DNA from: Nitrosospira multiformis
GTDB lineage: Bacteria; Pseudomonadota; Gammaproteobacteria; Burkholderiales; Nitrosomonadaceae
Assembly: GCF_900111585.1 (NCBI RefSeq)
Contig: NZ_FOHI01000002.1
Location: 186,001-250,000 of the forward strand
Reading direction: 5' to 3'
DNA: 64,000 bases
Shown here: one piece after another, positions 16,593-33,995 of the stretch
How positions within the stretch are numbered: position 1 is the stretch's first letter
Layout of the letters: each line of letters opens with the position of its first letter
Program-made: the position numbers and the translations under genes
The notes under the pieces: generated by a model
Told to the model about the DNA's origin: nothing
Seen by the model: only the letters and a program-made list of their open reading frames with translations
Database searches by the model: none

Positions 16593-17384
16593 CTAGGGCC
16601 TACTCTCTGAATGTTCATTTTCTATCCCAGGCAGGCCGTTTCCTGTTTCCGGAAGGTTCCTTTTTATATCCTCCGCGATAACCTCATAGAGCGGCCGCAA
16701 ATTGGGTCTCATACCCTTTATCGTTCCACTGACACTCATCATTGACGGAACACGTATACCATGATGCTCGACCGGGTGGCCGATGAACTTAAGGTCGAAC
16801 CCGAGTTTGGCAAAATGCAGTGCAAGGCGCTCCTCGGTCAGAATGAACAAAGTCTCGATTTTATGCAAGCGCGCCAGTTCGAAGGTACCTAAGTAAAGGC
16901 TGATTGGAATGTAAGGAAAGCGCCGCGATTGTGCTACTCCGAAATCCTCATCCGCAATGTCAATCGCTTTGCTCGCCTCGCCTTTACGTCTTCGGTAACT
17001 GGCAACGACAGCCAGACGTGATACCTCTGCGATATGATGGCGGGGCAACAGTGCGGGATCGATAATCGACCGGTCCAATGTATCAGCGCAGGTTATCTCA
17101 AAGGGTAAAGGGTAATTGGGATCCTTCGCCCGGGGAGAAATTATGCGCGCGCAGCCAATGAACTCTTGTGTCTGGACATTGCGTAACAAAAAGTGTAGCG
17201 AGTGAATATCATACTCATCGCTTTCTCGCCTATCCTGCCGGAGGGGCTCAAATTTGAGATCCTCGCAATAAACCTCATGCCGGATACGGTGAACCTCATC
17301 CCTTAATACATCCGAAAACGCCGGCACGATTTCGAAGTACCTCTTGAAGGTATGGCCCAGATCGGGTGTTTCGGTTAGAGACAT
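16593..17384 (-). CDS. PEP-CTERM/exosortase system-associated acyltransferase
   Basis: A 263-residue GNAT-fold protein related to autoinducer/N-acyl amino acid synthases, of the type found with exosortase/PEP-CTERM systems. Seen: the N-terminal FEIVPAFSDVLRDEVHRIRHEVYCED pattern (in parts), in which the RxxVY core resembles acyl-homoserine-lactone synthase N-termini, then EFIGCARIISP, HHIAEVSRLAV and a C-terminal substrate lobe. The family is thought to use acyl-ACP or acyl-CoA; the acceptor is unknown. PrsT and a PEP-CTERM substrate are 9-16 kb away; exosortase itself is not in the window. Confidence 0.85.
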   Translation of the reverse strand: MSLTETPDLGHTFKRYFEIVPAFSDVLRDEVHRIRHEVYCEDLKFEPLRQDRRESDEYDIHSLHFLLRNVQTQEFIGCARIISPRAKDPNYPLPFEITCADTLDRSIIDPALLPRHHIAEVSRLAVVASYRRRKGEASKAIDIADEDFGVAQSRRFPYIPISLYLGTFELARLHKIETLFILTEERLALHFAKLGFDLKFIGHPVEHHGIRVPSMMSVSGTIKGMRPNLRPLYEVIAEDIKRNLPETGNGLPGIENEHSESRP

Positions 17385-17564: not shown

Positions 17565-18332
17565 CTAGTCGAGTTTCTTTAAATAATCTTTGGTGAAAAC
17601 CTTATCCGGCAGATCGCGCTGTTTCATTCCCGAGTATTCGAGTACCGATTGTTCACCTGTACGCAAGGCATCTTCCATGACAAGACGGGTTGGACGTAGT
17701 GCTCCATGGAGCATCTGGAATTTCTCGTACCGGGCGGTTTTGAGTAGACGGTCGGACAGTGAGTAGAACTCCGCTCGATAAGGCCAGAAATTTGATTGCC
17801 CAACCCAATACAAAACTTTATGATAAGTCACTCCACGGTCGACTCCTGTGAGTTCCAGCACGTAATACTTTTCGCCCTCGATGACGTCTGTGCGCAAAAT
17901 TTTAGCGTTGTAATCCCCGGCAAAATTTGCGCGAGCCAAGTCCCCATTTGCTACTTGACCGGTAAGCCGTTGGGACAGGGATAGACGTACGGGCTGGGAG
18001 ACTTCCGGCATGAATATCCACAGATCTCGCCCTTTCAGCAATAAAATCTGACCTCGTTCCGAAGCTGGCTCCGTGGTCATCACTACGCTATTTTCGTTAC
18101 CCTTGGATAAGACCCTGTACTTGCGCAAATCTTCCGGATGATCCGGAGCGGTTGTGTTAATGGTGACGTCGACCTGAAAACTCTCTCGCGGGAATCGTAT
18201 CTGATCAGCCTTTTCCAGAATTGTTTGAGCCAGCTCAGTATCATTTGTGTCTGCTACTGCGGTTGGCACCGCAATAGCAAATAGGAGAATCACTGTTAAT
18301 AAGTATTGCTCAGAATTTTTTTGCATGTTCAA
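17565..18332 (-). CDS. LolA-like outer-membrane lipoprotein-sorting protein
   Basis: A 255-residue periplasmic protein with a signal peptide (hydrophobic residues 11-26, AVADT cleavage area) and the LolA/LolB-like half-barrel fold seen in 'outer membrane lipoprotein-sorting' proteins: DVTINTTAPDHPEDLRKYRVLSKG (in part), KGRDLWIFMPEVSQPVRLS, and the late LVMEDALRTGEQSVLEYSGM. Such proteins carry lipidated or hydrophobic cargo. It is divergent, by 51 bp, from an ABC ATPase and near two LolC/E-like permeases, so I infer it is the periplasmic carrier of that exporter. It is not canonical LolA. Confidence 0.85.
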   Translation of the reverse strand: MNMQKNSEQYLLTVILLFAIAVPTAVADTNDTELAQTILEKADQIRFPRESFQVDVTINTTAPDHPEDLRKYRVLSKGNENSVVMTTEPASERGQILLLKGRDLWIFMPEVSQPVRLSLSQRLTGQVANGDLARANFAGDYNAKILRTDVIEGEKYYVLELTGVDRGVTYHKVLYWVGQSNFWPYRAEFYSLSDRLLKTARYEKFQMLHGALRPTRLVMEDALRTGEQSVLEYSGMKQRDLPDKVFTKDYLKKLD

Positions 18333-18383
18333 TTCCTATCATGAATGCCAATTACTACGGGGATTACCGATCGGGGGATTTTT

Positions 18384-19118
18384 ATGAGTGACACGAGCAT
18401 TGTGCACCTCGAGAATGTTTCCAAAGATTACATCCTTGGTGAGCAGAAAGTCCAGGCATTAAAAGACATTACGTTAGATATCGCCTCCGGTGCTTTCCTC
18501 GCTATTGCAGGTCCATCTGGCAGTGGCAAGTCAACGCTGCTCAATCTGATTGGCTGTATTGATACTCCCACCTCCGGCAAAGTTTTAATCAATGGCCAGG
18601 ATATCAGCGGTCGTACTCCAGATGACCTGTCCGGGCTCAGGGCAAGAACTATCGGGTTTGTTTTTCAGACGTTCAATTTGTTTCCCGTTCTTTCAGCTGA
18701 GGAGAACGTCGAGTATCCGTTGCTGCAATTCAGGGAATTGAAGACAGCAGCGCGTCGCACCCGCGTTGCGGAATATCTCGGTATCGTCGGTTTATCCAAG
18801 TTTGCCCGACATCGGCCGAATCAGCTCAGCGGAGGACAACGTCAGCGTGTAGCAATTGCACGGGCACTTGCAACGCATCCGAAAATAGTACTGGCTGATG
18901 AGCCTACTGCCAATCTTGATCATGCGACAGGTGAAGGCATCCTGGAGTTGATGAAGAATATTAACGAAAAATTTGAGACAACCTTTATTTTTTCTACTCA
19001 TGATTCGCGTGTCATGGCGATCGCAGACAATGTAATACATATCGAAGATGGTCAGATCGTGCAACGGGAAACTCGTAAGGAGAAATCCATGCACGTTATT
19101 GAGCATAGGAATAGATAG
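18384..19118 (+). CDS. ABC transporter ATPase (LolD/MacB-like)
   Basis: A 244-residue ATPase of the MacB/LolD/FtsE family. Walker A GPSGSGKST, Q-loop FVFQTFNLFP, signature LSGGQRQRVAIARAL, Walker B IVLADEPTAN and the H-loop FSTHD are all intact. I chose the ATG at 18384 (MSDTSIVHLENVSKDY), which matches the family start; an upstream in-frame start at 18345 would add 13 residues. It pairs by family with the two FtsX-type permeases at 20.9-23.3 kb, although these are on the other strand beyond the DUF1302 gene. Confidence 0.94.
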   Translation: MSDTSIVHLENVSKDYILGEQKVQALKDITLDIASGAFLAIAGPSGSGKSTLLNLIGCIDTPTSGKVLINGQDISGRTPDDLSGLRARTIGFVFQTFNLFPVLSAEENVEYPLLQFRELKTAARRTRVAEYLGIVGLSKFARHRPNQLSGGQRQRVAIARALATHPKIVLADEPTANLDHATGEGILELMKNINEKFETTFIFSTHDSRVMAIADNVIHIEDGQIVQRETRKEKSMHVIEHRNR

Positions 19119-19163: not shown

Positions 19164-20858
19164 ATGAGTTACGGAATTAGGTGCGCATATCTGATAAGCA
19201 TAAAGGCGCTGCTTGTTGTAAGGTCGATCAGTTTTGCGGGGGAGGCGGAGGTTCAGCTTCCGGATGCTGCAAAACCGGTACGTGTTATCTACGACGCGAG
19301 TGAAGACCGTACAACACCTGCCGAGCCTTTGATGCTCACTTTGTCTTTATCGATGGGAACGTCTTCCGCTCGTCCGGTACAGGAGTCAGATGATGGAGCG
19401 GGCGCTGTGGTTTCGCACGGAGTGGACGTAGAGAGAAGGCTACATGAGGAGAAGCCTTTGCTATTGTCCGTGTCACCTTCTCTTTTTTTTATTTCGGCCC
19501 ATACAGCAAAAGATCATGCGATAAATCTGAACAGAGAACCTGCCCCTGTCATCGCTGCCGGGAATGATGCGGAGAGCGAGTTCACGTCGCGGGAAGCATT
19601 ATTTGGCGACGATTTGGATCAAGAGCAAAAGCCATCAAAACCTATACCTGCCTGGAAGAGGTTGGTAACTGGGTGGAGAGGTTTTTCTCAACTGGAAATC
19701 GCAGACACTTATACTGACCCCGAGCATTTATCGAAAGCAAAGCTTCGAACGGAGCTATCACGCACGGGGCAGTTCAACGAAAATATAAAATGGAAAATAA
19801 GCGGTCGCTTCGACTATGACGCAGCTTATGACCTGTCCAGTTTTTATCCACATGCGGTTCGTCAGGATCAACGCTACCAGTTTTTCGTCCGAGAAAATTA
19901 TCTTGATGTCTCGGCTGGCGATTTTGATTTCCGTCTCGGTCGTCAGCATGTGATATGGGGTGAGATGGTGGGACTGTTCTTCGCCGACGTGGTATCAGCG
20001 AAGGATTTGCGGGAATTTGTCCTGCCTGCCTTTGACATATTGCGCATTCCCCAATGGGCGGCGCGCGCAGAATATTCGAAGGGGGATTCCCATGCTGAAG
20101 TAGTGTGGATTCCTGTGCCGACTCTTGACGAGATTGGAAGGCCGGGAGCGGATTTCTATCCCGGTCCCCTGCGCGGGGTAGCTACCTATCTTCCAGAAGA
20201 TCGCTCCGGGCGGAATATCGGTAACTCCAACTATGGGGTGCGTTTATCGCACCTCGTAAATGGTTGGGATATTTCGGGTTTCTACTACCACAGCCTGGAT
20301 TCGTCGCCTACGTTCTACCGCATCGGTGGGCCGGCCGACCCTCCTGTCTTCCAGCCCCGTCATGATGAGATTGATCAGGTGGGCGGAACCCTTTCGAAAG
20401 ACTTCGGTTCAATCGTGCTAAAAGGCGAACTGATTTATACAGATGGACGCAAATTCAACGTCACGCGAGCCACCGCAATGAATGGGTTGGTCAGGCAGAA
20501 TACGCTCGACTATGTTATAGGCCTGGACTTCAGTTTACCTGCCGAAACCCGCTTGAATCTGCAGTTCTTTCAGCGTGTCTTTTTTGCACATGACCCGGAT
20601 CTCCCTCTGGACAAGCTTGAGAATGGCGCCAGCATTCTGCTCAATGGCAAACTATCGCCCAAGATTGAGGCCCAAGCTTTACTGATCCACAGTCTGAATC
20701 GTAGCGACTGGATGTTCCGGCCTCGATTATCCTGGAATTTCCAACCGAACTGGCGTTGGGCGGTTGGAGCAGACGTATTTGGCGGTCCACCTATTGGTCT
20801 GTTTGGCCGTTTCGATCATGCTGACCGCGTCTATACCGAATTGCGGTATTCATTCTGA
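19164..20858 (+). CDS. DUF1302 family outer-membrane beta-barrel protein
   Basis: A 564-residue protein with a probable signal peptide (residues 1-25, SFAGE cleavage area). After an unusual 120-residue low-similarity N-terminal extension, it shows the DUF1302 barrel pattern from about residue 165: FSQLEIADTYTDPEHLSKA, FVRENYLDVSAGDFDFRLGRQ, VIWGEMVGLFFADVVSAKD (all in part), many alternating aromatic strands, and a C-terminal strand ending ...YTELRYSF with the terminal phenylalanine expected for Bam recognition. It follows the ATPase by 45 nt and is probably co-transcribed, suggesting an outer-membrane partner of the exporter. Confidence 0.88.
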   Translation: MSYGIRCAYLISIKALLVVRSISFAGEAEVQLPDAAKPVRVIYDASEDRTTPAEPLMLTLSLSMGTSSARPVQESDDGAGAVVSHGVDVERRLHEEKPLLLSVSPSLFFISAHTAKDHAINLNREPAPVIAAGNDAESEFTSREALFGDDLDQEQKPSKPIPAWKRLVTGWRGFSQLEIADTYTDPEHLSKAKLRTELSRTGQFNENIKWKISGRFDYDAAYDLSSFYPHAVRQDQRYQFFVRENYLDVSAGDFDFRLGRQHVIWGEMVGLFFADVVSAKDLREFVLPAFDILRIPQWAARAEYSKGDSHAEVVWIPVPTLDEIGRPGADFYPGPLRGVATYLPEDRSGRNIGNSNYGVRLSHLVNGWDISGFYYHSLDSSPTFYRIGGPADPPVFQPRHDEIDQVGGTLSKDFGSIVLKGELIYTDGRKFNVTRATAMNGLVRQNTLDYVIGLDFSLPAETRLNLQFFQRVFFAHDPDLPLDKLENGASILLNGKLSPKIEAQALLIHSLNRSDWMFRPRLSWNFQPNWRWAVGADVFGGPPIGLFGRFDHADRVYTELRYSF

Positions 20859-20889: not shown

Positions 20890-22101
20890 TTATATATTCT
20901 GTCGTAGCGCATCAACAACGGGTGTGCGCGAGATATGCCTCCCGGGAACGATAGCCGCCGATACTGTTGCCGCTATACCGATGGCAAAGGATACCAGCAA
21001 AACGCCGGGGACAATCTGAATGTGGGCTGTATAGCCAAGATTGGAATTTGGAGGCGGCGGCATCGAAATACCCATAGCAGAGATAATAAGCGCGAGGACA
21101 ATTCCGAGTCCGAGTCCGAGGCCGCTGCCGATCACTCCCAGTAGAAAGTTTTCCGTGACGATCAATTGGAATACTTCGTTTCTGCGATTGCCCAGCGCCA
21201 TCATTGTGCCGAATTCTCCTGTTCTTTCAAAAGCACTCATGTTGACACTGTTCAGGACGCCGAGCAGAACCATGATAAGGATAATCAATTGCAGAAAACC
21301 TAGCTGGCGTCCATAAAGTTCTACCGTTTTTTCGTAGAAATCGTTGAGTTCGATCCAGGTTTTGATCTCAAGCCCCAAAGTCTCTAACTGTTCTTTTAGC
21401 AATCCTGCAATACGAAGTGTATCGTCCGTTTTTTTCAGTGAGATGACCAGTGCATTAACCCCTTGCGTGCCCAGCAACTCCTGGGACGCGGCGAGCGGAA
21501 CTCTTATTGCTCTAGCATCATAATCACTGGAGAAACTCTTGAATACGCCGACGACCTCCAGATCAATGGTGTTTAATGCTCCTTCCAGTGTATTTGCCAG
21601 CAGGGTTACGTGATCGCCGGGCTTCAGCTTCAATTCCTGGGCGACGCCCACCCCGATAGCGATACCGAACTTATCCGTGTTTTGCAGTTGACGCCCCGAG
21701 ATGATCGAGACGGAGCTTCCAAGCGCCGCTTCTTTCGCTGGTTCTACACCCTCTCCGATGATGGGAAGGTCAGCCCGGCCGTTATTGAGCAGGGCCGAGA
21801 AATTGAGTCGCGCCATTACGCTATCGATACCCTCGTTATTCATGATAAGCCGTTTAATGGCCTCGTCATCCGTTAGCAGATATCTCTCCGGAGCGTGTGC
21901 GCCAGCAGCAAAAAAACCTTTCTTGTAGACTTGCAGATGACCGGATCGAGAGTGAATAAGAGCCTCCGATAAAGTAACGAAAATATCGTTCACCCAGCCG
22001 CCAGCAAGAACAAGAGCTACCACGCCGCTCATGATCGCCGCCAGAGTCATTGCGGTGTGCGATTTCTGTCGAAAGATATTTCGAAAGGCCAGTCTGAGCA
22101 T
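20890..22101 (-). CDS. ABC transporter permease, LolC/E-MacB type (second of pair)
   Basis: A 403-residue FtsX-type permease: membrane segment at about residues 17-40, a large periplasmic MacB-core domain (about 45-265) and three more membrane segments (about 270-295, 318-350, 365-390). The family motif near the third segment contains GISMPPPP, shared with the neighbouring permease (GIPMPPPP), so the two are paralogues likely to form a heterodimer. It lies 16 nt downstream of the other permease gene. It converges on the DUF1302 gene with a 31-bp AT-rich gap. Confidence 0.93.
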   Translation of the reverse strand: MLRLAFRNIFRQKSHTAMTLAAIMSGVVALVLAGGWVNDIFVTLSEALIHSRSGHLQVYKKGFFAAGAHAPERYLLTDDEAIKRLIMNNEGIDSVMARLNFSALLNNGRADLPIIGEGVEPAKEAALGSSVSIISGRQLQNTDKFGIAIGVGVAQELKLKPGDHVTLLANTLEGALNTIDLEVVGVFKSFSSDYDARAIRVPLAASQELLGTQGVNALVISLKKTDDTLRIAGLLKEQLETLGLEIKTWIELNDFYEKTVELYGRQLGFLQLIILIMVLLGVLNSVNMSAFERTGEFGTMMALGNRRNEVFQLIVTENFLLGVIGSGLGLGLGIVLALIISAMGISMPPPPNSNLGYTAHIQIVPGVLLVSFAIGIAATVSAAIVPGRHISRTPVVDALRQNI

Positions 22102-22117
22102 TATTCACTTTTCCGAA

Positions 22118-23347
22118 TTATCTATTGTGACGTAGCGCATCCACTATCTGCATTCGGGATGCCTTCCAGGCTGGGTATATACTGGCGATGAGCGTCGCGC
22201 CAATCGCAAGCAAAAGGGATTCGAACGCAATATTCCACGTGACAAGTATTTCGCCCGTATAGCCACGGGTCGTCCCAGGGGGTGGCGGCATCGGGATCCC
22301 AATGCTCGATATCATGGCAGCCAGTGCTACCCCTATCGTAACGCCGAGCAGACCGCCGAAACCGCCGAGCAGAATGCCTTCACTCAGGAACCGTCGGAGA
22401 ACGTCGATGCGTCTGGCACCAAGTGCCATATCAGTACCAATTTCACCGATCCGCTCCATTACCGACATCGTCATGGCGTTCAAAATGGCAAGAAGGATGA
22501 TGAAGGCGATTATCAGCTTGAGGCCATGGATTTGTTTTGTAAACAAAGCCACGGTCTTATTGTAGAAATCAGCCAGGACATACCACGGAACAGCCTCGAA
22601 ATCACTCTTTTGCAATGAATCGCGTAATCTTTGGAGTACAGTATCGGTCTTCGCTGTGTCATTCAATAACACTACCCATACGTGAGAACCTTTGACCCGA
22701 AGGAGTTGGCGGGCTGTTTCGATCGGCATGCGTAGAGCGATATCGTCATAAGACTTGTTTACGGTGGAGAACAATCCTCGGACAGTGACCTCAACCGCAT
22801 TGACACCCCTTGATGCGGTACTCGCCAATAGCACAACCTTATCGCCAATGTTTACGTTGAGGTTGCGGCCAAGACCCACACCTAGAATAATGCCCTTCAG
22901 GTCATCTACTGAAAGATTTTCACCCGCAGAAATTTCCACCGAGCCGCTGAGAATGGCTTTTTCCTCTGGGATGACCCCTTCTCCAATAAATGAAAGAGTT
23001 GCGTCTCCGTGACTGATCAGGCCTCCAAAGGAGAGGCGGGGGATGATGGTCTTGATTTGACGTGGGCCGTTTGCCGGTTCCAGTTCAGGAATTGCATCCG
23101 GTAAAAGATAAGCGTATGGGTCAGCTTTTCCTGCTTCCTGATAGCCCGGTCTGCTGATCTGGATATGGCCGAGTTGCGACTGAATGGTGGCTTCCTGCAT
23201 GCCCCAGAATATCCACTCGATAAAGCCCGCTGCAAGGATCAGGGCGATAATGCCAAACGTAACCGCGCCAACAGCGATGGCACTGCGACGCTTGTGGCGC
23301 ACCATATTTCGAAATGCAAGCAAAAAGTCGAGCCGAATACGATCCAC
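22118..23347 (-). CDS. ABC transporter permease, LolC/E-MacB type (first of pair)
   Basis: A 409-residue paralogue of the next gene with the same four-segment layout and a periplasmic MacB-core domain. Shared features are the LAFRNMVRHKRRSAI start (coupling helix region), a GEGV loop near residue 125 and GIPMPPPPGTTRGYTG before the last membrane segment. It ends in MQIVDALRHNR, the family terminus (PVVDALRQNI in its partner). It starts a leftward two-gene operon; its promoter must lie in 23348-23676. With the ATPase at 18.4 kb this should make a complete LolCDE-like or MacB-like unit. Confidence 0.93.
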   Translation of the reverse strand: MDRIRLDFLLAFRNMVRHKRRSAIAVGAVTFGIIALILAAGFIEWIFWGMQEATIQSQLGHIQISRPGYQEAGKADPYAYLLPDAIPELEPANGPRQIKTIIPRLSFGGLISHGDATLSFIGEGVIPEEKAILSGSVEISAGENLSVDDLKGIILGVGLGRNLNVNIGDKVVLLASTASRGVNAVEVTVRGLFSTVNKSYDDIALRMPIETARQLLRVKGSHVWVVLLNDTAKTDTVLQRLRDSLQKSDFEAVPWYVLADFYNKTVALFTKQIHGLKLIIAFIILLAILNAMTMSVMERIGEIGTDMALGARRIDVLRRFLSEGILLGGFGGLLGVTIGVALAAMISSIGIPMPPPPGTTRGYTGEILVTWNIAFESLLLAIGATLIASIYPAWKASRMQIVDALRHNR

Positions 23348-23676: not shown

Positions 23677-24903
23677 GTGACGAAGCCGCAAATGGAAACC
23701 GGAAATAAGCCGATTATTCTTCTAGTTGCTGAAGCAGTCACCCTTGCGCATTTCGGTCGAATCGTGACATTGGCGCGAGCCCTTGATTCTACCGGGTATG
23801 AAGTGGTTGTCGCCTCGGATCCCCGCTATCTTGATTTAGACGCGCCACTGAACTGCACGTTCCATCCCATTCGGTCTATTCCCTCAGCCGAATTTGCGCT
23901 AGCCCTTGCTCGGGGAAAACCCGTGTATAGCCTTGAAACCCTCTCCCGCTATATTGAAGATGATCTGGCGCTGCTTGATCTCGTCAGACCCGCTCTCGTC
24001 GTAGGAGATTTCAGACTATCTCTGGCCGTGAGTGCACCGCTACGGAAAATTCCATTTGCCACCGTAGTCAACGCCTATTGGAGCCCCTATGCAGTGACCC
24101 GCTACCCTGTTCCCGATCTTCCGGTGACCCGCATTCTCGGTATCACACTTGCGCAAAAATTATTCGATATCATCAGACCCGTCGCCTTCGCCCTCCATGC
24201 CAGGCCCTTGAACCGGTTGCGTCGACGTTTCGGATTGACTCCTTTGGGGCAGGATATCAGAAACACATACACTTGGGCGGATTACACTTTATACGCAGAT
24301 ATCCCGGAAGTAGTGCCTGCGCTTAATTTACCTCCCCACCATCGCTATCTTGGTCCAGTACTCTGGTCCCCCGCTATCTCTCTGCCTGAATGGTGGGACT
24401 CCTTATCCAAAGACAAACCGATAGTGTTTCTAAGCCTAGGCAGTTCGGGTATGGCAGCACTTCTGCCGATGGCGCTTGCTGCCTTATCACAACTTGCGAT
24501 CACGGTTGTCGTAGCTACTGCAAGAAAAATTACCATAGATGAGGTTCCAGCGAACGCATATATTACTGATTACCTGCCATTGGACCTAGTTGCTGCACGC
24601 TTGAAAATAGTGATCAGCAACGGCGGCAGCCTGACTACTTATCAGGCGCTCTCAAGCGGCGTGCCGGTCATCGGTCTGTGTTCGAACCTGGATCAACTGC
24701 TGAATATGAATGCAGTGCAGCGGTTGGGGGCCGCTGTTACCTTGCATTGCGCTCGGATATCCGCTACTGACCTCGTGATGGCTGTAACCGCAATGCTGGA
24801 TAATCCATCGTATGGACGAGCGGCAATCAAGATAAGCCAGGTCTTGGCAGAATCAGATGCCAAACAGCGTTTTCGGGAATTTGTGGCGCAGGTTCTTCAT
24901 TAA
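23677..24903 (+). CDS. UDP-glycosyltransferase family protein (GT1-like)
   Basis: A 408-residue GT-B fold glycosyltransferase starting at a GTG. The N-terminal acceptor half has an AEAVTLAHFGRIVTLARAL pattern (in part) typical of macrolide-type and sterol-type transferases. The C-terminal half has VFLSLGSSG and the nucleotide-sugar site ISNGGSLTTYQALSSGVPVIG, with D/Q of the family replaced by NLDQLLNM. The acceptor is unknown; related enzymes glycosylate lipids, carotenoids and polyketides. It is followed by the E2-like acyltransferase after 56 nt, so the two probably act on the same product. Confidence 0.88.
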   Translation: MTKPQMETGNKPIILLVAEAVTLAHFGRIVTLARALDSTGYEVVVASDPRYLDLDAPLNCTFHPIRSIPSAEFALALARGKPVYSLETLSRYIEDDLALLDLVRPALVVGDFRLSLAVSAPLRKIPFATVVNAYWSPYAVTRYPVPDLPVTRILGITLAQKLFDIIRPVAFALHARPLNRLRRRFGLTPLGQDIRNTYTWADYTLYADIPEVVPALNLPPHHRYLGPVLWSPAISLPEWWDSLSKDKPIVFLSLGSSGMAALLPMALAALSQLAITVVVATARKITIDEVPANAYITDYLPLDLVAARLKIVISNGGSLTTYQALSSGVPVIGLCSNLDQLLNMNAVQRLGAAVTLHCARISATDLVMAVTAMLDNPSYGRAAIKISQVLAESDAKQRFREFVAQVLH

Positions 24904-24959: not shown

Positions 24960-25772
24960 ATGGATCATCAATACACAACACTTGAGAGAAATCGATATTT
25001 CGAGGTGCTGGGCGGTTTGAACGTGGAAAATCGCGGCGATAATAAAGTTGCGATGCTCTCGGAACTTGATATGACATCGGCACAGGCATTGCGGACTTCC
25101 GTCAACCGGCAGACCGGCGTCAAACCTTCGTACACTGCAATTGTAGCCAAGGCGGTTTCAATAGCCTTGCGAGAGCATCCATATGCTAACCGAATGGCAG
25201 TGGAACGATTGTTCTGGAAGCGAATCCTGCAATTGCATGACGTGCATATGACAATCGCGGTAGAACGTGACCGGCCGGGCATCGAACAGGCAGTGTTCGC
25301 GGGTACGATCAGGGATACTGACAAGCTGGATGTAGCTGCCATCACCAAAGAATTGCAAAGTTTGGCGCAGTCAACAGAAGAAACCAACGAACGTTGGCGG
25401 CTGCTCAAACGCATGGTTGAGACCCTTCCGCCCGCTTTGGCTCGCCGGTTAATATCGATTCCGCGCTGGTTTCCCGATCAGTGGATCAAGCATCGAGGTG
25501 GCTCAGTCATGATTTCATCGCCCGCCAAATATGGCGTGGATATGATGGTTGCGAACTGGCCATGGCCGATTGGCTATTCTTTCGGCTTGGTGAAAGACCG
25601 AGTGATCGCCGTGGAGGGCGCGGTGCAGGTAAGACCGACCATGGTTCTCACCATGAGTTTCGATCGTCGTCTAATGGGGGGAGCACCGGCTGCCCGGTTT
25701 TTTCGCACAGTGTGCGAACATATAGAACATGCGGAACAGGATATGGCTTTACCTGTTGACATCACTGCGTAG
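24960..25772 (+). CDS. E2-like (CAT-fold) acyltransferase domain protein with altered catalytic motif
   Basis: A 270-residue stand-alone protein that resembles the catalytic domain of 2-oxoacid dehydrogenase acyltransferases but lacks lipoyl and E1/E3-binding domains. The C-terminal site reads SFDRRLMGGAPAARF (233-247) where AceF in this window has SYDHRVIDGATAARF. The catalytic His is therefore Arg (R236) and the Asp is Gly (G240). A second histidine-rich region, HDVHMTIAVERD (93-104), is kept. AGGAGG lies just upstream of the ATG. Possible roles are an acyltransferase with another mechanism, or a non-catalytic partner of the glycosyltransferase upstream. Confidence 0.82.
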   Translation: MDHQYTTLERNRYFEVLGGLNVENRGDNKVAMLSELDMTSAQALRTSVNRQTGVKPSYTAIVAKAVSIALREHPYANRMAVERLFWKRILQLHDVHMTIAVERDRPGIEQAVFAGTIRDTDKLDVAAITKELQSLAQSTEETNERWRLLKRMVETLPPALARRLISIPRWFPDQWIKHRGGSVMISSPAKYGVDMMVANWPWPIGYSFGLVKDRVIAVEGAVQVRPTMVLTMSFDRRLMGGAPAARFFRTVCEHIEHAEQDMALPVDITA

Positions 25773-25919: not shown

Positions 25920-26759
25920 TCAGGTGCGACGACGACCCGTGAAGGCAAAACCAAGCAGACCGATACCCATCAGAGCTAAAATACCGGGTTCAGGCACTTC
26001 CGCGGCGGTAAAACCTTGTGATCCATCGGTTTGTATTACAAAACTTGATGCAGTGTCAGCCCCCGTGGCAACCCCGTTAAATGCTGTCGGCCGCGTATAT
26101 TCCGGCGCACTCTGGCCGGGGAATTGAAGCGAGGCTTGAAACTGGGTGCCTACCAATGCCGGATTTATATACGTGCTATTAGTGTTGGTGACTGTGCCGA
26201 ACAGAAAACCGCCGCCCGTACCGAGTACATCCGGACCAGGAATTGCACCGGTTGCAGAGAAGGTGCTAAAACCACTGTCCCATGTTCCACTCAGTATGCT
26301 CGTTCCGTCGAGAAAACCCGTCCCGGTGGCCTGGTTCGCATCCGGGTTGGAATCAAGGAAGATCTCCCATGTTCCGCTGTTCGTAGTGATCTGAATGCTG
26401 GTACACCCGTCGTTCTGGCAAACCGCAGTCTGTGTAATCTGCTGAAAGGTAGTTACTTCGTACGTCCCGGTTTCGGGGCCAGGCGACGCCACAAATAGAT
26501 TATTCGTTGGGGAAGTGGTGTTGATGACACCTGCAAAGGCCTGGTACGTCAAGGTGAAGGTATCGCTATCACCAGCGTTATTGGCACCGGTCAGGTCAAA
26601 CCCCTGAACCCAGCCACCCCCATTTGAATGCCAGTCGAAGCCTGTAAAATTTTGCAGTATTCCATCTGGGCTGAACGTATTCAGAGTTGCCGAATATCCA
26701 ATAGCGGGGCCACCTAGCAGTACTGCAGCCATTGATAAATTGATGAGCTTTTTATTCAC
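25920..26759 (-). CDS. PEP-CTERM sorting domain protein
   Basis: A 279-residue exported protein. It has a signal peptide (MNKKLINLSMAAVLLGG, cleavage near GYSA), a Gly/Thr/Asn/Ser-rich body with few charged residues and one NDGC/TAVC cysteine pair, and a C-terminal sorting signal. This is VPEPG at about 256-260, a hydrophobic helix and the basic end GRRRT. Exosortase would cut at the PEP motif. The body resembles no enzyme I know; such proteins are secreted or surface-linked and often glycosylated. A strong terminator follows and a 21-bp direct repeat lies upstream. Confidence 0.92.
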   Translation of the reverse strand: MNKKLINLSMAAVLLGGPAIGYSATLNTFSPDGILQNFTGFDWHSNGGGWVQGFDLTGANNAGDSDTFTLTYQAFAGVINTTSPTNNLFVASPGPETGTYEVTTFQQITQTAVCQNDGCTSIQITTNSGTWEIFLDSNPDANQATGTGFLDGTSILSGTWDSGFSTFSATGAIPGPDVLGTGGGFLFGTVTNTNSTYINPALVGTQFQASLQFPGQSAPEYTRPTAFNGVATGADTASSFVIQTDGSQGFTAAEVPEPGILALMGIGLLGFAFTGRRRT

Positions 26760-27339: not shown

Positions 27340-29382
27340 TCAGGTACGCCAAAGCATCTGCTCCAGCTCGAGTCGAATAGACCGCGAAGTCGGTCTTTTG
27401 CCAGCGCCAATGCGTCCCATGAAAACGGCTCTGGTCGCGACTTCTTCTCCCAGAATATGATCGAGCCGCCGGGTCAGTGAGGTGGCGAGTTTAATGCATT
27501 GTTTTGTCTTCGAAAAGGGAATACCTTCACGACTATAACGTGCAAAAACGAGGGGAGTTATCTCCGGCTGTAACTGCAAGCCAAGTTTGGTAGCTGTAAG
27601 CCAGAAGCGCTGCATAACGCGCCCTGCGCTCACGTAATCATCGATGGATCGAGGCGCGTGAGGCGCCAGGATAACGAAATGCCCGGCACAGGCCATGCCG
27701 GGTATCAAATCCATCTGGAGACGCGGCGCCCAGGTTCCCGCCAAAAAAGTGTTAAAAAATTCGACACGATTCCAGCTTCCCATAATCCAACGCATTAACC
27801 GTGCTGTAAGTGGATCAACTCCGAGTGCTTGGTCAGGTACTTTATCCGCGCTATAGCGGGAGTTCCATTGTATGATGGCGCGGTGCACCTGATAGGCTTC
27901 AGGCATAATCAGACGCAGTTTTGCATTGTCGAACAGGAATCGGGCCATTTCCAGACGTCTGGAAAAACCCTCCAGCCATAAGATGTCATACTGAGGTTTC
28001 ACTGCAGCCTCTAGCGCACCCTTTTCTCTCCCGGTTAAAGGCCGCGTACTCATGGGACGGCGTTGAACACTGCGATAGGGTATATAAGGAATAAGCGGAT
28101 CGGGCGTAAGATGCGCGTCAGTCTCGAAATGGATGTCGAAAGTTGGTTTCGTATCGGGACAATCGGGAATTCGCTGGATACGTGTTTTTAGACCATGGCC
28201 TGTAGCGGCAATAGATATGGTTTCCAGCAATGCCCCGATGGAAATTTGACTAGGACGTCCATCCAGGTCATAGACGCAGTGCTCACGGGTATCGAAACCA
28301 TGTATTATCAGGTAATTGTCCCCGACGATCTGGAACCGCCAAGGCTGGGTATTGTCTCCGCTCGGCGCCCATCTGGCAAGATCGAGGATTTGTTCGATTA
28401 ATGTATGTGCCTCGAGGTCGGCGGGCCTTTTGCTTTCACCCTCACAGCCTGCCGATTCAGGCGGAATGGTAGTATCCGTGGAAGAATATTGTTCCGGATC
28501 TCTGAAGAGCTTTTTAGCATTTTTTTTGCTCAGGCGACGCCTGGCGATTGCGAGACTGAGTTGCTGGAGAGGATTGCTGTTCCCACCCGGACGCCAGGTA
28601 CGGATCAATTTATTGCGGTAGGCATCGAAGTGAACTCCATGTGGAGCAGCCAAAACCGTACCGCGATTCAGTAGTATCTTCAGAGCTTCAGTAGCTGCAA
28701 TACCCGCGCAGAGTTGGCAACCCATTATCGTCGAGGGACCGCGGCGTTCCTTGAGGTTGATGCTGGAAGGATCCAGCAGGTAGCGGGCATGTAGACCAGT
28801 GGGCGCGAGCCCTATCAAAAAACGGAGGGCCTTTTCCACCTCAGGTAGATCACCCCACTGAAAATACTCTTCGAAGGTCATTTTACCAGGCAGGAAATTC
28901 AATAATGCCGATCCCATGCCTAAAGGAGCGGTCGTTATGGCGGGAATACCCCGCTCCTGGCAAGCCGAAAACGTTGCTGCGCGAGCTGAAAAGGCAAAAA
29001 AGTCGAGACCATCGATATACAGATCAACGTCCTCGAAAAATTCCGGCAAATTATCCGGATTGACGCCCTGAGGAAAGATTTTGATATTCAGTTCCGGATT
29101 GATATCTCGCGCCATCACGGCTAAAACCTCGCTCTTTGGCCGATTGAGGCTTGAAACCGTGGCACCTATCTGGCGGTTGAAATTGACCAGATCGAAAACA
29201 TCAAAATCCGCAATATGAAATGCGCCGACCCCCAGTCGAGCCAAGGTCAGCAGATGAATACCACCGACACCACCCAATCCGGCAATTGCAACGCGTTTGT
29301 ACCGTAGAATTTCCTGTTCGACAGGTGTTACCCACCCAATATTGCGGGAGGTGGCCTCACGATATGAGAAATCCTGAACCAT
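27340..29382 (-). CDS. E1-like ThiF adenylyltransferase fused to a nitroreductase domain
   Basis: A 680-residue two-domain protein. Residues 10-265 are a ThiF/MoeB/E1 domain with nucleotide loop GLGGVGG (35-41), the acidic ADFDVFDLVNFNRQ (58-71) that binds ATP/Mg, and one CxxC pair (C222, C225). The second CxxC of zinc-binding MoeB is not seen. A charged linker (about 285-325) leads to a nitroreductase-like FMN domain with APSGDNTQPWRF at 339-350, running to the end. The same fusion is known in mycobacterial Rv1355c-like proteins. It may activate a carboxylate and reduce or oxidise the product; the substrate is unknown. It lies 179 nt downstream of a FeeM-like synthase. Confidence 0.85.
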   Translation of the reverse strand: MVQDFSYREATSRNIGWVTPVEQEILRYKRVAIAGLGGVGGIHLLTLARLGVGAFHIADFDVFDLVNFNRQIGATVSSLNRPKSEVLAVMARDINPELNIKIFPQGVNPDNLPEFFEDVDLYIDGLDFFAFSARAATFSACQERGIPAITTAPLGMGSALLNFLPGKMTFEEYFQWGDLPEVEKALRFLIGLAPTGLHARYLLDPSSINLKERRGPSTIMGCQLCAGIAATEALKILLNRGTVLAAPHGVHFDAYRNKLIRTWRPGGNSNPLQQLSLAIARRRLSKKNAKKLFRDPEQYSSTDTTIPPESAGCEGESKRPADLEAHTLIEQILDLARWAPSGDNTQPWRFQIVGDNYLIIHGFDTREHCVYDLDGRPSQISIGALLETISIAATGHGLKTRIQRIPDCPDTKPTFDIHFETDAHLTPDPLIPYIPYRSVQRRPMSTRPLTGREKGALEAAVKPQYDILWLEGFSRRLEMARFLFDNAKLRLIMPEAYQVHRAIIQWNSRYSADKVPDQALGVDPLTARLMRWIMGSWNRVEFFNTFLAGTWAPRLQMDLIPGMACAGHFVILAPHAPRSIDDYVSAGRVMQRFWLTATKLGLQLQPEITPLVFARYSREGIPFSKTKQCIKLATSLTRRLDHILGEEVATRAVFMGRIGAGKRPTSRSIRLELEQMLWRT

Positions 29383-29421
29383 TACCCGGGCCGATCAGTA
29401 GGAATAGGGGAGCAATTTTCG

Positions 29422-29447
29422 AGGTGAGCTATATAGGTGAGCTATAT
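29422..29447. repeat. Perfect 13-bp tandem duplication upstream of the ThiF-nitroreductase gene
   Basis: AGGTGAGCTATAT occurs twice without a gap (29422-29434, 29435-29447), continuing into alternating AT. It is 40-65 bp upstream of the leftward start codon, in the spacer between the FeeM-like gene and the fusion gene, where a promoter or operator is expected. Confidence 0.75.
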
Positions 29448-29561
29448 ATATGATATGAATGATAGCATCAATGCCAAATGCTTTGGCAGGGAGATTGATG
29501 GAAAAGTATCAGCTTCAAGGGACAGAAAGGTTGCAGAAGTTAAAAAGCATGTGCGTGAATT

Positions 29562-30380
29562 TCACGCAGATGGTATCCAGACACCCCCGGTTTTCAGTCG
29601 CTCAGTAATGTCACCTTCATCCTGTGCGGAAAAAAAATAAGGGTAAAATGATCTTTCGTTACCGTGTTGCTCCATCAATCCGCCGAATTTCCCAATTTGC
29701 TCGGCCATATATTCAAGTTTCACCCTAAGCAGCACCGCGGGTGCGTCAACACGGGTGCAAACTCGCTCTTCGGCAATCTGCCTGCATCCCAGCATTCTTT
29801 TATAGAAACCAGCGTGACGAGGATTTACTTCTACCACCCAATCAGTAAAACCATGGATATTCGCCGCGTAGATATAGCAAATATGGATCAGTGAAGCAAA
29901 AACCCGGGGAGGTACATTATCATCAATCGCAAGTCTGGAAGGTTCACACAGCTTTCGTCCCTGCGCTCGCAACTCATTCAGTTCGTCACCAAAATTCTCA
30001 TCCGCGGGCAACGATGAATTGCCATCCAGACACAAGGTCATAGTGCCTACTGTCTGGTTTGCGGTTTCAGCGATCAATGTAATTCTGTTAGGCTCATTGA
30101 TTACCGGCATATCAACAGAATAACCTCTCCAGGAATACCTTTTTTTTATGAGCAAACTCGCGGCTTCACGTTGATCTTCTGAATTAGCCATCCGAATATG
30201 AAAGAGCTGTTGATCGATAGGATGATCGCGAACCGACTCGGAATCACGCTCCCCGATACAAAGATCATGCAACCGATAAGGAGACTTGAATGAAATTATT
30301 GCTTCGCTATCTTCACTATCATGAGGCAGAAAGTTATATCTGTGAGTAATGAGAGCATAAAGTAGCCGAAAAATATGCAT
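29562..30380 (-). CDS. FeeM-like N-acyl amino acid synthase (GNAT fold)
   Basis: A 272-residue protein resembling N-acyl amino acid synthases of the FeeM type, relatives of acyl-homoserine-lactone synthases. Seen are the RMANSEDQREAASLLIKKRYSWRGY region (in part), NRITLIAETANQTVGTMTLCLD, CEPSRLAID and the late WVVEVNPRHAGFYKRMLGCRQI of the acyl-acceptor half. The ATG at 30380 is preceded by AGGA at good spacing; the frame stays open to 30422. Known relatives join acyl-ACP to tyrosine or other amino acids. The ThiF-nitroreductase gene is next, so the pair may form and modify an acylated amino acid. Inference. Confidence 0.8.
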   Translation of the reverse strand: MHIFRLLYALITHRYNFLPHDSEDSEAIISFKSPYRLHDLCIGERDSESVRDHPIDQQLFHIRMANSEDQREAASLLIKKRYSWRGYSVDMPVINEPNRITLIAETANQTVGTMTLCLDGNSSLPADENFGDELNELRAQGRKLCEPSRLAIDDNVPPRVFASLIHICYIYAANIHGFTDWVVEVNPRHAGFYKRMLGCRQIAEERVCTRVDAPAVLLRVKLEYMAEQIGKFGGLMEQHGNERSFYPYFFSAQDEGDITERLKTGGVWIPSA

Positions 30381-30827: not shown

Positions 30828-33617
30828 CTACTGTATCCGCTCAAGAAGAGCTCTCGCTTCATCTATACCCGAAAAGGTTTTTCCAGTAGCCAGAATTTGT
30901 TCAAGCTCTTTACGGGCCTGGCTTTTATTGCCAGACTTGACCAGTGCGGATGCAAAATGGTAGCGAATTTCCCCTGCTTGAGGCGCCAAAGAAGCGGCTT
31001 TCTGTAAAAGCGGTAGGGCCCGCGCGATATTTTCCTGCTCCAGTAGTACCCAACCCAGTGTATCCAGTACTGCCGGGTTTTCCGTAGCTAACTGATATGC
31101 CTTTTCCGCGTATTCCAAGGCCCTGGGGTCCTTTTGGCGCTGATAAGCGGTAGCCAGGTTATTGAGTGCCGGAGCAAATTTCGGTTGCTCTTTCAGGACA
31201 GCTTGATATTGCTCGACTGCAGCAGCCAATTTTCCCTCTGTGAGAAATGTATCCGCGAGGTACATTCGAGTAGGTAAATCATCTGGGTGTTTTTTCAGCC
31301 ATTCGATCAAGCGAAGGTCTGCCTCCTTATCTTTTCCAGCCTGCCTGAGCGATGCGTGGAGCTTGATCAATAAGGCCGAGGTTTTATTAACCGCGAATGC
31401 CTGTTCATAGGCACTTGCGGCAAGCGCAGGTTTTTTCTGTTTCAGCAACAGATCGCCCTCTGCTATATAACCTGCGGGTGATCCTTTATGCTGTTTCTGA
31501 ACTTGGTGCGCCATCGCAATTGCTTTCTCATAATTACCCTGTTCTGCTTCAATCTCGATCTGCGCCAATTGCGCAGCCAGATAATCGGGTTTTATAGCCA
31601 GCGATTTTTTCAGCGCATCTGATGCCGCGGAGAGGTTTTGCATTGCCATATGAATGGAGGCGATGCGGAATTGAACAAGCGGTGACTCCGGTTGTACGAC
31701 AGCGAGCCGGGCGTAGCTCTCCAGGGCACTCGCTCTGTCATTGTTAGCTAGTTGAGCCTGTGCCAGTAAATCCAGCACAGCGGGTTCCTTGGAATGTGTC
31801 CCCTCCAGTTTCTTGGCGAGAGCCAGCGCTTTCTGTTTTTCGCCCAAACGAAGATAATGTGATCCAAGCAGGATGGCCGGCTGCAGGACATCCGGATTTG
31901 CTTGCATTGCACGCTCCAGCCACTCGGTAGCCTTCTGGTTCTGTCCCTGGTTGACAGCAAGACCCGCCAGCGCGACCATGGCCTGGATATTCTTCTTGTC
32001 CTTTTCCAGAACTGCTTCAAAGCGTTTTCTGGCGGCGTCCGGTTTTTTATCCTGAATGTCGAGTCGCGCGAGATTTGCTATAGTCGGGAAATAGTTTGGT
32101 TGAATAGCAAGCGCTTTCTCAAAGCTCGCTCTTGCATTCGTTATATCGTTCTTGCCAAGATATACGCCGCCTTTCAGGTTCTGAATGAGCGGATTATCCG
32201 GGTTCTCCTTCTCCAACGCTTTTACCGCGGCGAGGGCCTTGTCGAATTCTTTGAGGCGTAAATGGGTCATGACCAGCAGGACTCCTGCCCGCGGCGATTT
32301 GGGGTCGAGTTTTGTCGCTGTTTCCAGTTCGGAGAGGGCCCGCGCGCTCTCCCCCTGCCCCAACCTGCTCATGCTTAAAGCGGTATGAAGCATCGCACTT
32401 CTCGGTGCGATATCGCTTGCCATTTCAAAGTATTCCGTGGCTTTCGCAAAGTCCCTGGCTTGCATGTAAGCTTCCCCAGCCAAGGCGAATAACTGAGGAT
32501 CCTCTTTCACATTTTTGAGCGATGGGGTCAGGATGTCGATAGCGCGTTTCGTCTCGCCATTTTTTAACATCACGGAAGCAAGCAGCTTGCGCGCGTAGAC
32601 GTTTCCGGGGTCCTTCTCCAGATAATGTTTCAGGTGTTGTTCCGCCTGCGGCATGGATCCCAGAGCAAACTGGACTGCGCCCGCGAGCAACACGCTGGGC
32701 ATGTGCTCCGGCGACTTGCTGAGTATCTGCTGGAGCGATTCCAGCGCGGCAGCAGGCTTTTTCTGACTGAAATCGAGCAAAGCCTGAGTATAGAACACCA
32801 TCAAGCTGGGACTAATCTTGCGTGCAGCGTCGATATCTGCCTTTGCCGCCTCGAACCTGCCCGTTCCAATTTCGATGAATGCCTTGTTGATATAGGCAAT
32901 GGTCGCGTTCGGCTTCAGCTTCACCACCTGGTCATAGGCAGCCAGAGCTTCCCCGGATTTACCCTGCATCCGCAGAAGGTCGCCCTTGAACAACCAGGCA
33001 TCGACATTTTGCGTACTCCGGGAAACCGCCTGTTCCGAGAAATGGGTTGCGGCTTCCACATCCCTTTGCAGCAGGGAATATTTCGCCAAGCCGATCAGGG
33101 CGTCGGCAGAATCGGGATTTTGTCCAAGCGCTTGCTCGAACAATGCCTTTGCTTCCGCAGTCTTGCCTAATCCGAGCTGCGCATTCCCCCGGAGCGTGAG
33201 TATCTGCGCTGACTTTGTTTTGTCGGCCAGTTCTTTCGTTTCATCCAGGATTTGTTGATAGGAGCCTAGCCTGAGCAAGGCTTGTCCCAGTTCGGGCAGC
33301 ACCTTGCCCGCATCCATTCCCAGGCTCAATGCCTTGCGAAGCTCTTTCTCTGCGGACTGAAAATCCCCAGTCTTGTTGTATATTGCGCCAAGCAGATACC
33401 GCGCTTCCGAATTATCAGGGTTCTGCTGCAAGGCATTTTTTAGCTGGATGATGGCTGACTTGTGATCCCCGCTTTCTTCGTAGCGCTTCGCATCCGCCAT
33501 CAGTTTCGCCGGCTCCACCGCTTTGTTACAGCCTTGCATGCTCCCCGCGGTGAGGGCGGCAGCGATTGCAAGCGTCAGGCCAGTCTTTTTTAAAGCAGTC
33601 TTTCTAAAAGCGCGCAT
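30828..33617 (-). CDS. prsT: PEP-CTERM system TPR-repeat lipoprotein PrsT
   Basis: A 929-residue lipoprotein built almost wholly of tetratricopeptide repeats. The N-terminus (MRAFRKTALKKTGLTLAIAA) is a signal sequence with a lipobox ending ...GSMQGC and cysteine near residue 30. From about residue 45 to the end, roughly 34-residue helical repeats follow (phrases such as AIIQLKNALQQNPDNSEARYLLG in part, AKALFEQALGQNPDSADALIGLA). This matches the PrsT family that accompanies exosortase systems. I chose 33617 because the signal peptide starts there; an open frame to 33704 would bury it. The protein probably organises export of polysaccharide or PEP-CTERM cargo. Confidence 0.9.
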   Translation of the reverse strand: MRAFRKTALKKTGLTLAIAAALTAGSMQGCNKAVEPAKLMADAKRYEESGDHKSAIIQLKNALQQNPDNSEARYLLGAIYNKTGDFQSAEKELRKALSLGMDAGKVLPELGQALLRLGSYQQILDETKELADKTKSAQILTLRGNAQLGLGKTAEAKALFEQALGQNPDSADALIGLAKYSLLQRDVEAATHFSEQAVSRSTQNVDAWLFKGDLLRMQGKSGEALAAYDQVVKLKPNATIAYINKAFIEIGTGRFEAAKADIDAARKISPSLMVFYTQALLDFSQKKPAAALESLQQILSKSPEHMPSVLLAGAVQFALGSMPQAEQHLKHYLEKDPGNVYARKLLASVMLKNGETKRAIDILTPSLKNVKEDPQLFALAGEAYMQARDFAKATEYFEMASDIAPRSAMLHTALSMSRLGQGESARALSELETATKLDPKSPRAGVLLVMTHLRLKEFDKALAAVKALEKENPDNPLIQNLKGGVYLGKNDITNARASFEKALAIQPNYFPTIANLARLDIQDKKPDAARKRFEAVLEKDKKNIQAMVALAGLAVNQGQNQKATEWLERAMQANPDVLQPAILLGSHYLRLGEKQKALALAKKLEGTHSKEPAVLDLLAQAQLANNDRASALESYARLAVVQPESPLVQFRIASIHMAMQNLSAASDALKKSLAIKPDYLAAQLAQIEIEAEQGNYEKAIAMAHQVQKQHKGSPAGYIAEGDLLLKQKKPALAASAYEQAFAVNKTSALLIKLHASLRQAGKDKEADLRLIEWLKKHPDDLPTRMYLADTFLTEGKLAAAVEQYQAVLKEQPKFAPALNNLATAYQRQKDPRALEYAEKAYQLATENPAVLDTLGWVLLEQENIARALPLLQKAASLAPQAGEIRYHFASALVKSGNKSQARKELEQILATGKTFSGIDEARALLERIQ

Positions 33618-33662
33618 GTAAATTCCCTTCTCCGAATCATCAACCAGGTCCACCTTCAAACT

Positions 33663-33692
33663 CCTGCGTTCCTGCATTCCTGCATTCCTGCA
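33663..33692. repeat. 8-bp tandem repeat upstream of prsT
   Basis: CCTGCRTT repeated 3.75 times: CCTGCGTT, CCTGCATT, CCTGCATT, CCTGCA. It lies 46-75 bp upstream of the prsT start. A unit of 8, not divisible by 3, could shift the frame of any longer N-terminus or change promoter spacing if copy number varies. Confidence 0.75.
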
Positions 33693-33995
33693 GCCAGCAC
33701 TCAACTTTACACCTCTGCGCAGTCCCAGTGAAACGAGGACTGTTCGATTTCAGGAGGACGATCGATGCCGATGTTTTCCATTGGTTTTGCCACTACTATT
33801 ACGGCTCGTCAGCCTGAATATAAAGTGCGACAGGGATAAGCTCATTCGCCCTGGCTTCCTTGATACTCGCGCTCAAATGGCGGAGTTCGAGTAAACTTAG
33901 CGTAGAAATATAGCAAGAGATCAAGGTATCGTGTAGAAAAGATGATCTCGTGCTCCCGGTTCGTTTGCATTGGTTATCGGTGTTCGCTTGAGGCT

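Follow-up and report, generated by a model that had tools for sequence, protein, structure and literature searches.

Acyl-oxazolones are formed by systems in which an N-acyl amino acid synthase (NAS) acts together with a cyclase of the ThiF type and with a flavin-dependent oxidase (FDO) of the nitroreductase superfamily, as described for OxzA/OxzB, TyzA/B/C, and TrzA/TrzS (PMC10404671, PMC12856293). The cyclase and the oxidase are one fused protein in OxzB and TrzS, and oxazolones were detected from the OxzAB, TyzABC, and TrzAS systems (PMC10404671, PMC12856293). Genes for a NAS, a ThiF protein, and a nitroreductase are also tied to the kyonggic acids, thalassotalic acids, and stieleriacines (PMC12479983), and long-chain NAS have been linked to PEP-CTERM/exosortase systems (Craig 2011, as cited; ExoAT of Methylomonas LW13) (PMC4897644, PMC11072679, PMC7293339). 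Here, we analyze a FeeM-type NAS gene and an adjoining gene for a ThiF-nitroreductase fusion in a 64,000-nt stretch of Nitrosospira multiformis (contig NZ_FOHI01000002.1, positions 186,001 to 250,000; hereafter the window, with coordinates counted from its first letter), and establish their domains, conserved residues, linkage, and co-occurrence across genomes. Judged by domain set and layout, the core pair likely belongs to the acyl-oxazolone kind, with OxzB, TrzS, and TyzB/C compared by description only. Our best reading is one of known core chemistry to which a glycosyltransferase (GT), a second NAS, and a surface island possibly add a sugar and a link to the cell surface. The features that carry this reading are the following.

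29562 to 30380, minus strand: FeeM-type NAS (PF21926; PDB 2g0b; ratio of nonsynonymous to synonymous substitution rates, dN/dS)
28513 to 29382, minus strand: ThiF/E1-type adenylating cyclase domain, fusion residues 1-290 (PF00899, PRK08223, TcdA, E. coli ThiF fold)
28414 to 28512, minus strand: disordered linker, fusion residues 291-323 (predicted local distance difference test, pLDDT, <50)
27340 to 28413, minus strand: FDO (Acg-type nitroreductase) domain, fusion residues 324-680 (PF00881, NF047509, 2ymv fold)
29383 to 29561, minus strand: spacer of 179 nt, with a promoter-like site and, where FeeM stops, a terminator-like hairpin (region 29383-29568)
23677 to 24903, plus strand: GT1-like (GT-B) glycosyltransferase (PF06722, 7.1e-14; CalG1, 1.6e-14)

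The gene pair with its domains is real and not a product of chance. The FeeM gene runs from an ATG at 30380 to a stop at 29562, with an alternative in-frame TTG at 30422, and matches PF21926 far above the gathering cut-off of 27 (E 1.3e-53, 181.5 bits); a profile search of the PDB returned FeeM itself (2g0b, 4.6e-11) as its single match. The fusion gene (27340-29382, minus strand, ATG start) lies downstream on the same strand, beyond a gap of 179 nt (29383-29561), and encodes 680 aa. PF00899 covers fusion residues 13-265 (1.8e-39), and the model PRK08223 (NF006077, named only "hypothetical protein") covers residues 3-290 with 437.8 bits, passing its cut-off of 266. The second half is matched by PF00881 (1.9e-11), aligned over residues 327-353 only, the stretch that holds APSGDNTQPW, and by the Acg family model NF047509 with 119.9 bits, below the cut-off of 199. 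Neither frame is interrupted, and purifying selection acts on both, with dN/dS of 0.14-0.20 among Nitrosospira strains (two strain pairs for each gene; 0.17-0.20 for the FeeM gene alone). An Rfam scan of positions 15000-36500 gave no match at gathering scores.

In a sequence-profile search of the PDB the ThiF half was nearest to TcdA/CsdL (TcdA 1.4e-22), followed by E. coli ThiF and MoeB; TcdA/CsdL likewise adenylates and cyclizes a carboxylate. The AlphaFold2 model of the fusion (mean pLDDT 89.9, pTM 0.57) consists of two confident halves joined by the disordered linker. By fold, Foldseek placed the modeled first half nearest to E. coli ThiF and its relatives, and the second half nearest to 2ymv, a Mycobacterium smegmatis homologue of Acg (TM score 0.73 by target). 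The GLGGVGG loop occupies fusion residues 35-41, and its G35, G37, G38, and G40 show no variation among the aligned ThiF rows that span them. Conservation, counted over 26 ThiF rows and 30 FDO rows, is complete for D61, R70, K83, D124, and D127 of the ThiF half (26/26), which we take to be the residues expected for adenylation, as well as for A336, P340, S341, D343, N344, Q346, W348, and R490 of the FDO half (30/30); Q605 is kept in 29 of 30 rows. The layout of FeeM gene and fusion, the nucleotide loop, and the nitroreductase motif had all been reported in a preliminary description of the locus, and its proposed structural check comes out in favor of an Acg-type nitroreductase fold for the second half, as far as a model can tell.

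With ThiF and FDO fused in one protein and a NAS adjoining it upstream, the pair has the domain set of the acyl-oxazolone synthase systems. It is most like OxzA/OxzB of Pseudoalteromonas rubra (de Rond 2021), where an N-acyltransferase gene lies beside a single ThiF-nitroreductase fusion gene and acylation, cyclization, and desaturation follow one another (PMC10404671, PMC12856293), steps that the window pair would share; compared by description, it differs in lying within an XrtA/PEP-CTERM island with GT and ATP-binding cassette (ABC) exporter genes. TrzA/TrzS of mycobacteria and Rhodococcus also place a ThiF-FDO fusion behind a NAS, and TrzA is tryptophan-specific and prefers short chains (PMC12856293). 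The catalytic Asp and the FMN-site Gln of TrzS appear to be kept, as D127 would correspond to TrzS D217 and Q605 to TrzS Q651, matched by motif and numbering alone; R490 could answer to TrzS R540 by numbering alone, a match that is ambiguous for Arg. On the Rv1355c-family model (NF005901, TrzS) the window fusion scores 171.7 bits and misses the cut-off of 476. The clusters of Massilia kyonggiensis (kyonggic acids), Thalassotalea, and Stieleria have the same three activities, with ThiF and nitroreductase as separate genes and no GT mentioned in the available portions (PMC12479983). The published link between long-chain NAS and exosortase is shared by the window, which also has a TIGR03694 gene, whereas ThiF and nitroreductase stand outside that link as the available text describes it.

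We consider it probable that the pair encodes a pathway of the OxzA/OxzB type, whichever form its end product takes. By analogy with the homologues, the FeeM-type NAS would acylate the amino group of a probably aromatic amino acid, with an acyl carrier as donor of the fatty acyl chain. The ThiF half would use ATP to adenylate the carboxylate, and ring closure through the amide oxygen would yield a 5(4H)-oxazolone. The Acg-type FMN half would take off two hydrogens, O2-dependently in the studied homologues. The outcome would be an acyl-oxazolone with an alpha,beta double bond or, once this is hydrolyzed, an N-acyl-dehydroamino acid, the compound type to which kyonggic acids and stieleriacines belong. 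Two further steps are suggested more weakly by gene linkage: the linked GT might add a sugar, and a Lol-like ABC system might deliver the lipid to the matrix or the outer membrane within an XrtA/PEP-CTERM surface program. The preliminary description had guessed at an acylated amino acid that is then adenylated and oxidized, in agreement with the characterized pathway; it left out the PEP-CTERM context, the GT, and the ring closure that yields an oxazolone. Its statement that no function had been described for such a pair was wrong, because OxzB, TrzS, and TyzB/TyzC are ThiF and flavin-oxidase systems behind a NAS (PMC10404671, PMC12856293). At its widest, our proposal would have the island produce and export an acyl-oxazolone bearing a sugar, or else a glycoside of the opened N-acyl-dehydroamino acid, by means of NAS, ThiF, FDO, GT1, and the Lol-like ABC/LolA/DUF1302 genes, as a component of surface or matrix in the XrtA/PEP-CTERM flocculation program; more broadly, the TIGR03694 acyltransferases of many Proteobacteria would perform the acyl-amino-acid step of the same pathway. 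To this complete proposal we assign a probability of roughly 35%.

The association of ThiF with NAS extends well beyond the window. In a sample of 398 genomes of the phylum, relatives of the fusion (E ≤ 1e-35, all matching the ThiF half) occurred in 16 genomes, TIGR03694 in 32, and PF21926 in 36; the co-occurrence counts take one common set of 398 genomes, and likewise one set of 136 below, as equal numbers and handles indicate. A NAS was present in all 16 ThiF genomes vs 51 of the 382 without ThiF (Fisher 8e-14), and a TIGR03694 gene in 14 of 16 vs 18 of 382 (Fisher 2e-15); these tests, like the one below, count related genomes as independent, with relatedness uncorrected. The nearest NAS lay 43-4216 bp from the ThiF match in every one of the 16, hence within 5 kb. 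Nine of the 16 come from one family (f19), possibly, as a mere guess, methanotrophs. In these f19 genomes (G027, G035, G295, G307, G338, G354, G358, G366, and G393), ThiF lies 43-4216 bp from a TIGR03694 acyltransferase.

The neighborhood of the closest relatives was followed in 80 loci, the best 80 of at least 548 relatives (at least 592 stretches) and thus the most window-like, rich in Oxalobacteraceae; 12 of them are shorter than 12 kb, so that absences in these mean little. The FDO was found in 71 loci by tblastn and in 74 by hidden Markov model (HMM), and the HMM tally gave FeeM in 33, a TIGR03694-type gene in 8, and neither in 40. Of the 33 loci in which the HMM detected FeeM, 31 have it no more than 256 nt from ThiF. 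NAS and ThiF genes thus adjoin far outside Nitrosospira, the outcome that the preliminary description had named as support for a pathway. On plasmid pDVUL01 of Nitratidesulfovibrio vulgaris DP4 the three domains form one natural fusion of 989 aa (WP_011787321.1, L147:5062-8031), with FeeM at residues 43-198, ThiF at 316-565, and nitroreductase from 609 on; it is annotated just as a ThiF family adenylyltransferase and lies near an XrtA glycosyltransferase and PEP-CTERM proteins. A plasmid search for TrzS-like sequence returned Nitratidesulfovibrio and Bdellovibrio matches only. Two variants of the NAS were seen in passing. Five genomes (G420, G434, G435, G436, and G440; loci L074, L096, L097, L106, and L122) have ThiF-FDO together with a weak PF21926 match in a frame of 255-258 aa (E ~1e-4 to 1e-6), which may represent another, divergent type of NAS, and in G421, G439, G441, G443, and G444 the FeeM domain lies within open frames of 477-564 aa and may be fused to another part.

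The GT is a frequent partner of ThiF-FDO genes in a subset of systems, and this link is the main addition to the published work that we found. Among proteins of solved structure, GT-B enzymes such as CalG1 come closest to it. A GT relative (41-65% identity) occurs in 34 of the 80 loci, 35-7286 bp from ThiF/FDO. Among 13 Nitrosospira genomes, that of the window (G000) included, it was present at E ≤ 1e-20 in all seven with a fused (G000, G003, G005, G007) or an adjacent, separate (G004, G009, G012) ThiF-FDO pair and in none of the other six. Among these six, ThiF and FDO lie far apart in G006, the FDO is divergent in G008, and ThiF-FDO was not found in G001, G002 (80% complete), G010, and G011; the 20 kb fetched for G011 covered the island in part only, and that of G002 was not fetched. 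Among 136 genomes from the family to which Janthinobacterium sp. GW456P belongs, 30 had ThiF/FDO, 10 the GT, and 9 both (Fisher 3.6e-6), all nine pairs being 131-3112 bp apart; the tenth GT (G453) has 33% identity and no ThiF in its genome. This test was centered on G418, chosen for the ThiF and GT already seen at its locus L072, and three of the genomes (G418, G426, and G442) also supply loci to the set of 80; when they are left out, 6 genomes had both, 21 ThiF only, 1 the GT only, and 105 neither (p 2.6e-4). The match beside the GT in G442 covers query residues 265-677 only, mostly FDO. A full-text search found no glycosylated acyl-oxazolone and no report linking oxazolones, N-acyl/nitroreductase chemistry, and a glycosyltransferase, nor one joining ThiF, exosortase, and acyltransferase; subscription papers were mostly outside its coverage, which makes this weak evidence of novelty. 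In its available text, one paper describes a Rubrivivax PEP-CTERM polysaccharide cluster with two THIF genes beside ABC transporter genes (PMC3684757), and in another PEP-CTERM and ThiF both occur, but unrelatedly (PMC3226654).

Several observations weigh against our best reading. FeeM alone is not enriched among the ThiF genomes of the 398-genome sample (3/16, p 0.17), and 40 of the 80 ThiF loci had no HMM-detected NAS in the flank examined. Two of these (L067 and L068) begin inside FeeM and were counted as lacking a NAS by HMM though tblastn sees the FeeM end. For 29 of the 40, a genome-wide search (E ≤ 1e-15) recovered FeeM in 22 and TIGR03694 in 4, 24 in all, and neither NAS kind in 5; the 11 outside this search were L067, L068, L079, L083, L089, L091, L098, L101, L104, L127, and L138. 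The GT is missing from 46 of the 80 loci, from 21 of the 30 ThiF genomes in the Janthinobacterium family, and from G006 and G008, and in the 398-genome sample it occurred only in the window's own genome (E ≤ 1e-30) while the other 15 with ThiF lacked it, because of which we regard it as a mark of a subset of systems. An exporter specific to ThiF was rejected, as the exporter is present without ThiF in Nitrosospira (L054, L055). The shortfall on the TrzS model counts here as well. Lastly, FeeM and fusion may be transcribed separately, as two transcripts; the numbers of promoter- and terminator-like sites around the spacer are not above those in shuffled sequence, and the spacer is resembled by that of G007.

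Within the proposed pathway, the end product could be an open-chain N-acyl-2,3-dehydro amino acid of the kyonggic acid or stieleriacine type, the oxazolone being a transient activated form that enables flavin desaturation and is then opened by water. We regard this as a serious possibility that falls a little below even odds. The producers of kyonggic acid, thalassotalic acid, and stieleriacines carry NAS, ThiF, and nitroreductase, and the available portions of that work report no oxazolone observed (PMC12479983); moreover, tryptazolones are hydrolyzed by acid and opened by alcohols (PMC12856293). The gene order of the window, PrsT-FeeM-ThiF-FDO, is shared with several loci of Massilia (e.g., L099, L102, L103, L105, L113), the genus of kyonggic acid producers, M. 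kyonggiensis itself not being among the fetched loci. The OxzAB, TyzABC, and TrzAS systems, on the other hand, gave detectable oxazolones, and non-detection elsewhere may stem from extraction conditions.

It is comparably plausible, though we lean slightly the other way, that the GT serves exopolysaccharide assembly and is linked to ThiF-FDO merely by shared PEP-CTERM islands. PrsT commonly adjoins (28 of 80 loci), and most FeeM-bearing Massilia loci, like the 15 other ThiF genomes, lack the GT. Yet the four fetched Nitrosospira islands in which ThiF and FDO are neither fused nor adjacent (G001, G006, G008, and G010) retain exporter and NAS without a GT, and none was found elsewhere in these genomes; nine of the ten GT genomes in the Janthinobacterium family have ThiF/FDO, all nine within 3.2 kb, and the GT1/GT-B type resembles small-molecule enzymes. 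A ThiF/MoeB role, in which the ThiF half would act on a sulfur-carrier or ubiquitin-like protein and its neighborhood would be incidental, suits its E1-superfamily fold and nucleotide site and is nevertheless very improbable, a plain sulfur-carrier E1 role being rejected on the ThiF/MoeB model cut-offs (TIGR02356, 80.5 of 275.25; NF004281, 67.2 of 266) and on the NAS partner found in all 16 ThiF genomes of the 398-genome sample and fused in WP_011787321.1, while G000 has two further ThiF/MoeB-like matches elsewhere.

The proposed acyl-oxazolone pathway lies in a surface island, in which the genes between RNase G and PrsT run from TIGR03694 through the LolA-like, LolD-like, DUF1302, and two permease genes to the GT, the E2-like gene, PepA, and then the pair.

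16593 to 17384, minus strand: PEP-CTERM/exosortase system-associated acyltransferase, probable second NAS (TIGR03694, 257.5 bits, cut-off 111.95)
17565 to 18332, minus strand: LolA-like periplasmic lipid/lipoprotein carrier (PF17131, 4.8e-49)
18345 to 19118, plus strand: LolD/MacB-like ABC ATPase (TIGR02211, 216.7 bits, below the cut-off of 307.75)
19164 to 20858, plus strand: DUF1302 protein, presumably with an outer-membrane role (PF06980, 3.5e-13)
20890 to 22101, minus strand: FtsX/LolCE-like permease 1 (PF02687, PF12704)
22118 to 23347, minus strand: FtsX/LolCE-like permease 2 (PF02687, PF12704)
24960 to 25772, plus strand: stand-alone E2/CAT-fold acyltransferase, possible tailoring enzyme (PF00198, 3.4e-23)
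25920 to 26759, minus strand: PepA, flocculation-associated PEP-CTERM protein (NF033554, 169 bits, cut-off 80)
30828 to 33704, minus strand: PrsT, XrtA/PEP-CTERM TPR protein (TIGR02917, 946.6 bits, cut-off 312.2)

A second TIGR03694 acyltransferase is encoded elsewhere in the window's genome (G000:C14:446243-446944, 262.1 bits). In the 80 loci the exporter genes occur at a rate of about one in ten (ABC ATPase 11, FtsX 10 each, LolA-like 7, DUF1302 7). The E2-like acyltransferase, which lies beside the GT and might acylate the sugar, was rejected as a core partner, being present besides the window in 2 of 20 fetched loci (G004, G007) and in none of the 80 others. Among the fetched loci the Nitrosospira island is kept with variation, the ThiF(-FDO) genes occupying different spots in it, and in G012 no FeeM-type NAS was found, its weak FeeM match coinciding with its TIGR03694-type gene. 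A near-whole island (fused ThiF-FDO, DUF1302, ATPase, LolA-like, both permeases) is present in the Gammaproteobacteria bin Ga0074134 (L092), whose GT is 65% identical to that of the window; the set without GT recurs in Nitrotoga (L131), and most of it, also without GT, in L114, L130, L141, and L143. In a ThiF tree of 97 rows, from which L066 (same genome as L046) and L054, L055, and L056 (no ThiF) were omitted, the Nitrosospira rows fall in three places: with Gallionellaceae/Methylophilaceae bins, with Nitrotoga, and near Rhodocyclales. Approximately unbiased (AU) tests on a quick tree rejected one common origin for the ThiF genes of Nitrosospira (p 1.3e-5) and for the fused form (p 7.8e-6), with p-values that flatter because the groups were picked after seeing the tree. 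The three places and the rejected single clade point to a ThiF slot in the Nitrosospira island that was probably filled several times by transfer.

For the tryptazolone authors, what oxazolones do physiologically is still a major unresolved question (PMC12856293). Both the GT and TIGR03694, by their linkage, open the role of acyl-oxazolone lipids to direct testing: the pathway in PEP-CTERM/exosortase islands gives a testable product site, namely the outer surface, flocs, and biofilm, and the frequent GT gives a testable chemical extension, a glycoside. The chemistry is known elsewhere; in Nitrosospira it is joined by a sugar-adding enzyme and cell-surface genes. Ammonia oxidizers inhabit flocs and biofilms in soil and wastewater, and if our proposal is true, a search for such a surface lipid in these organisms would be worthwhile.

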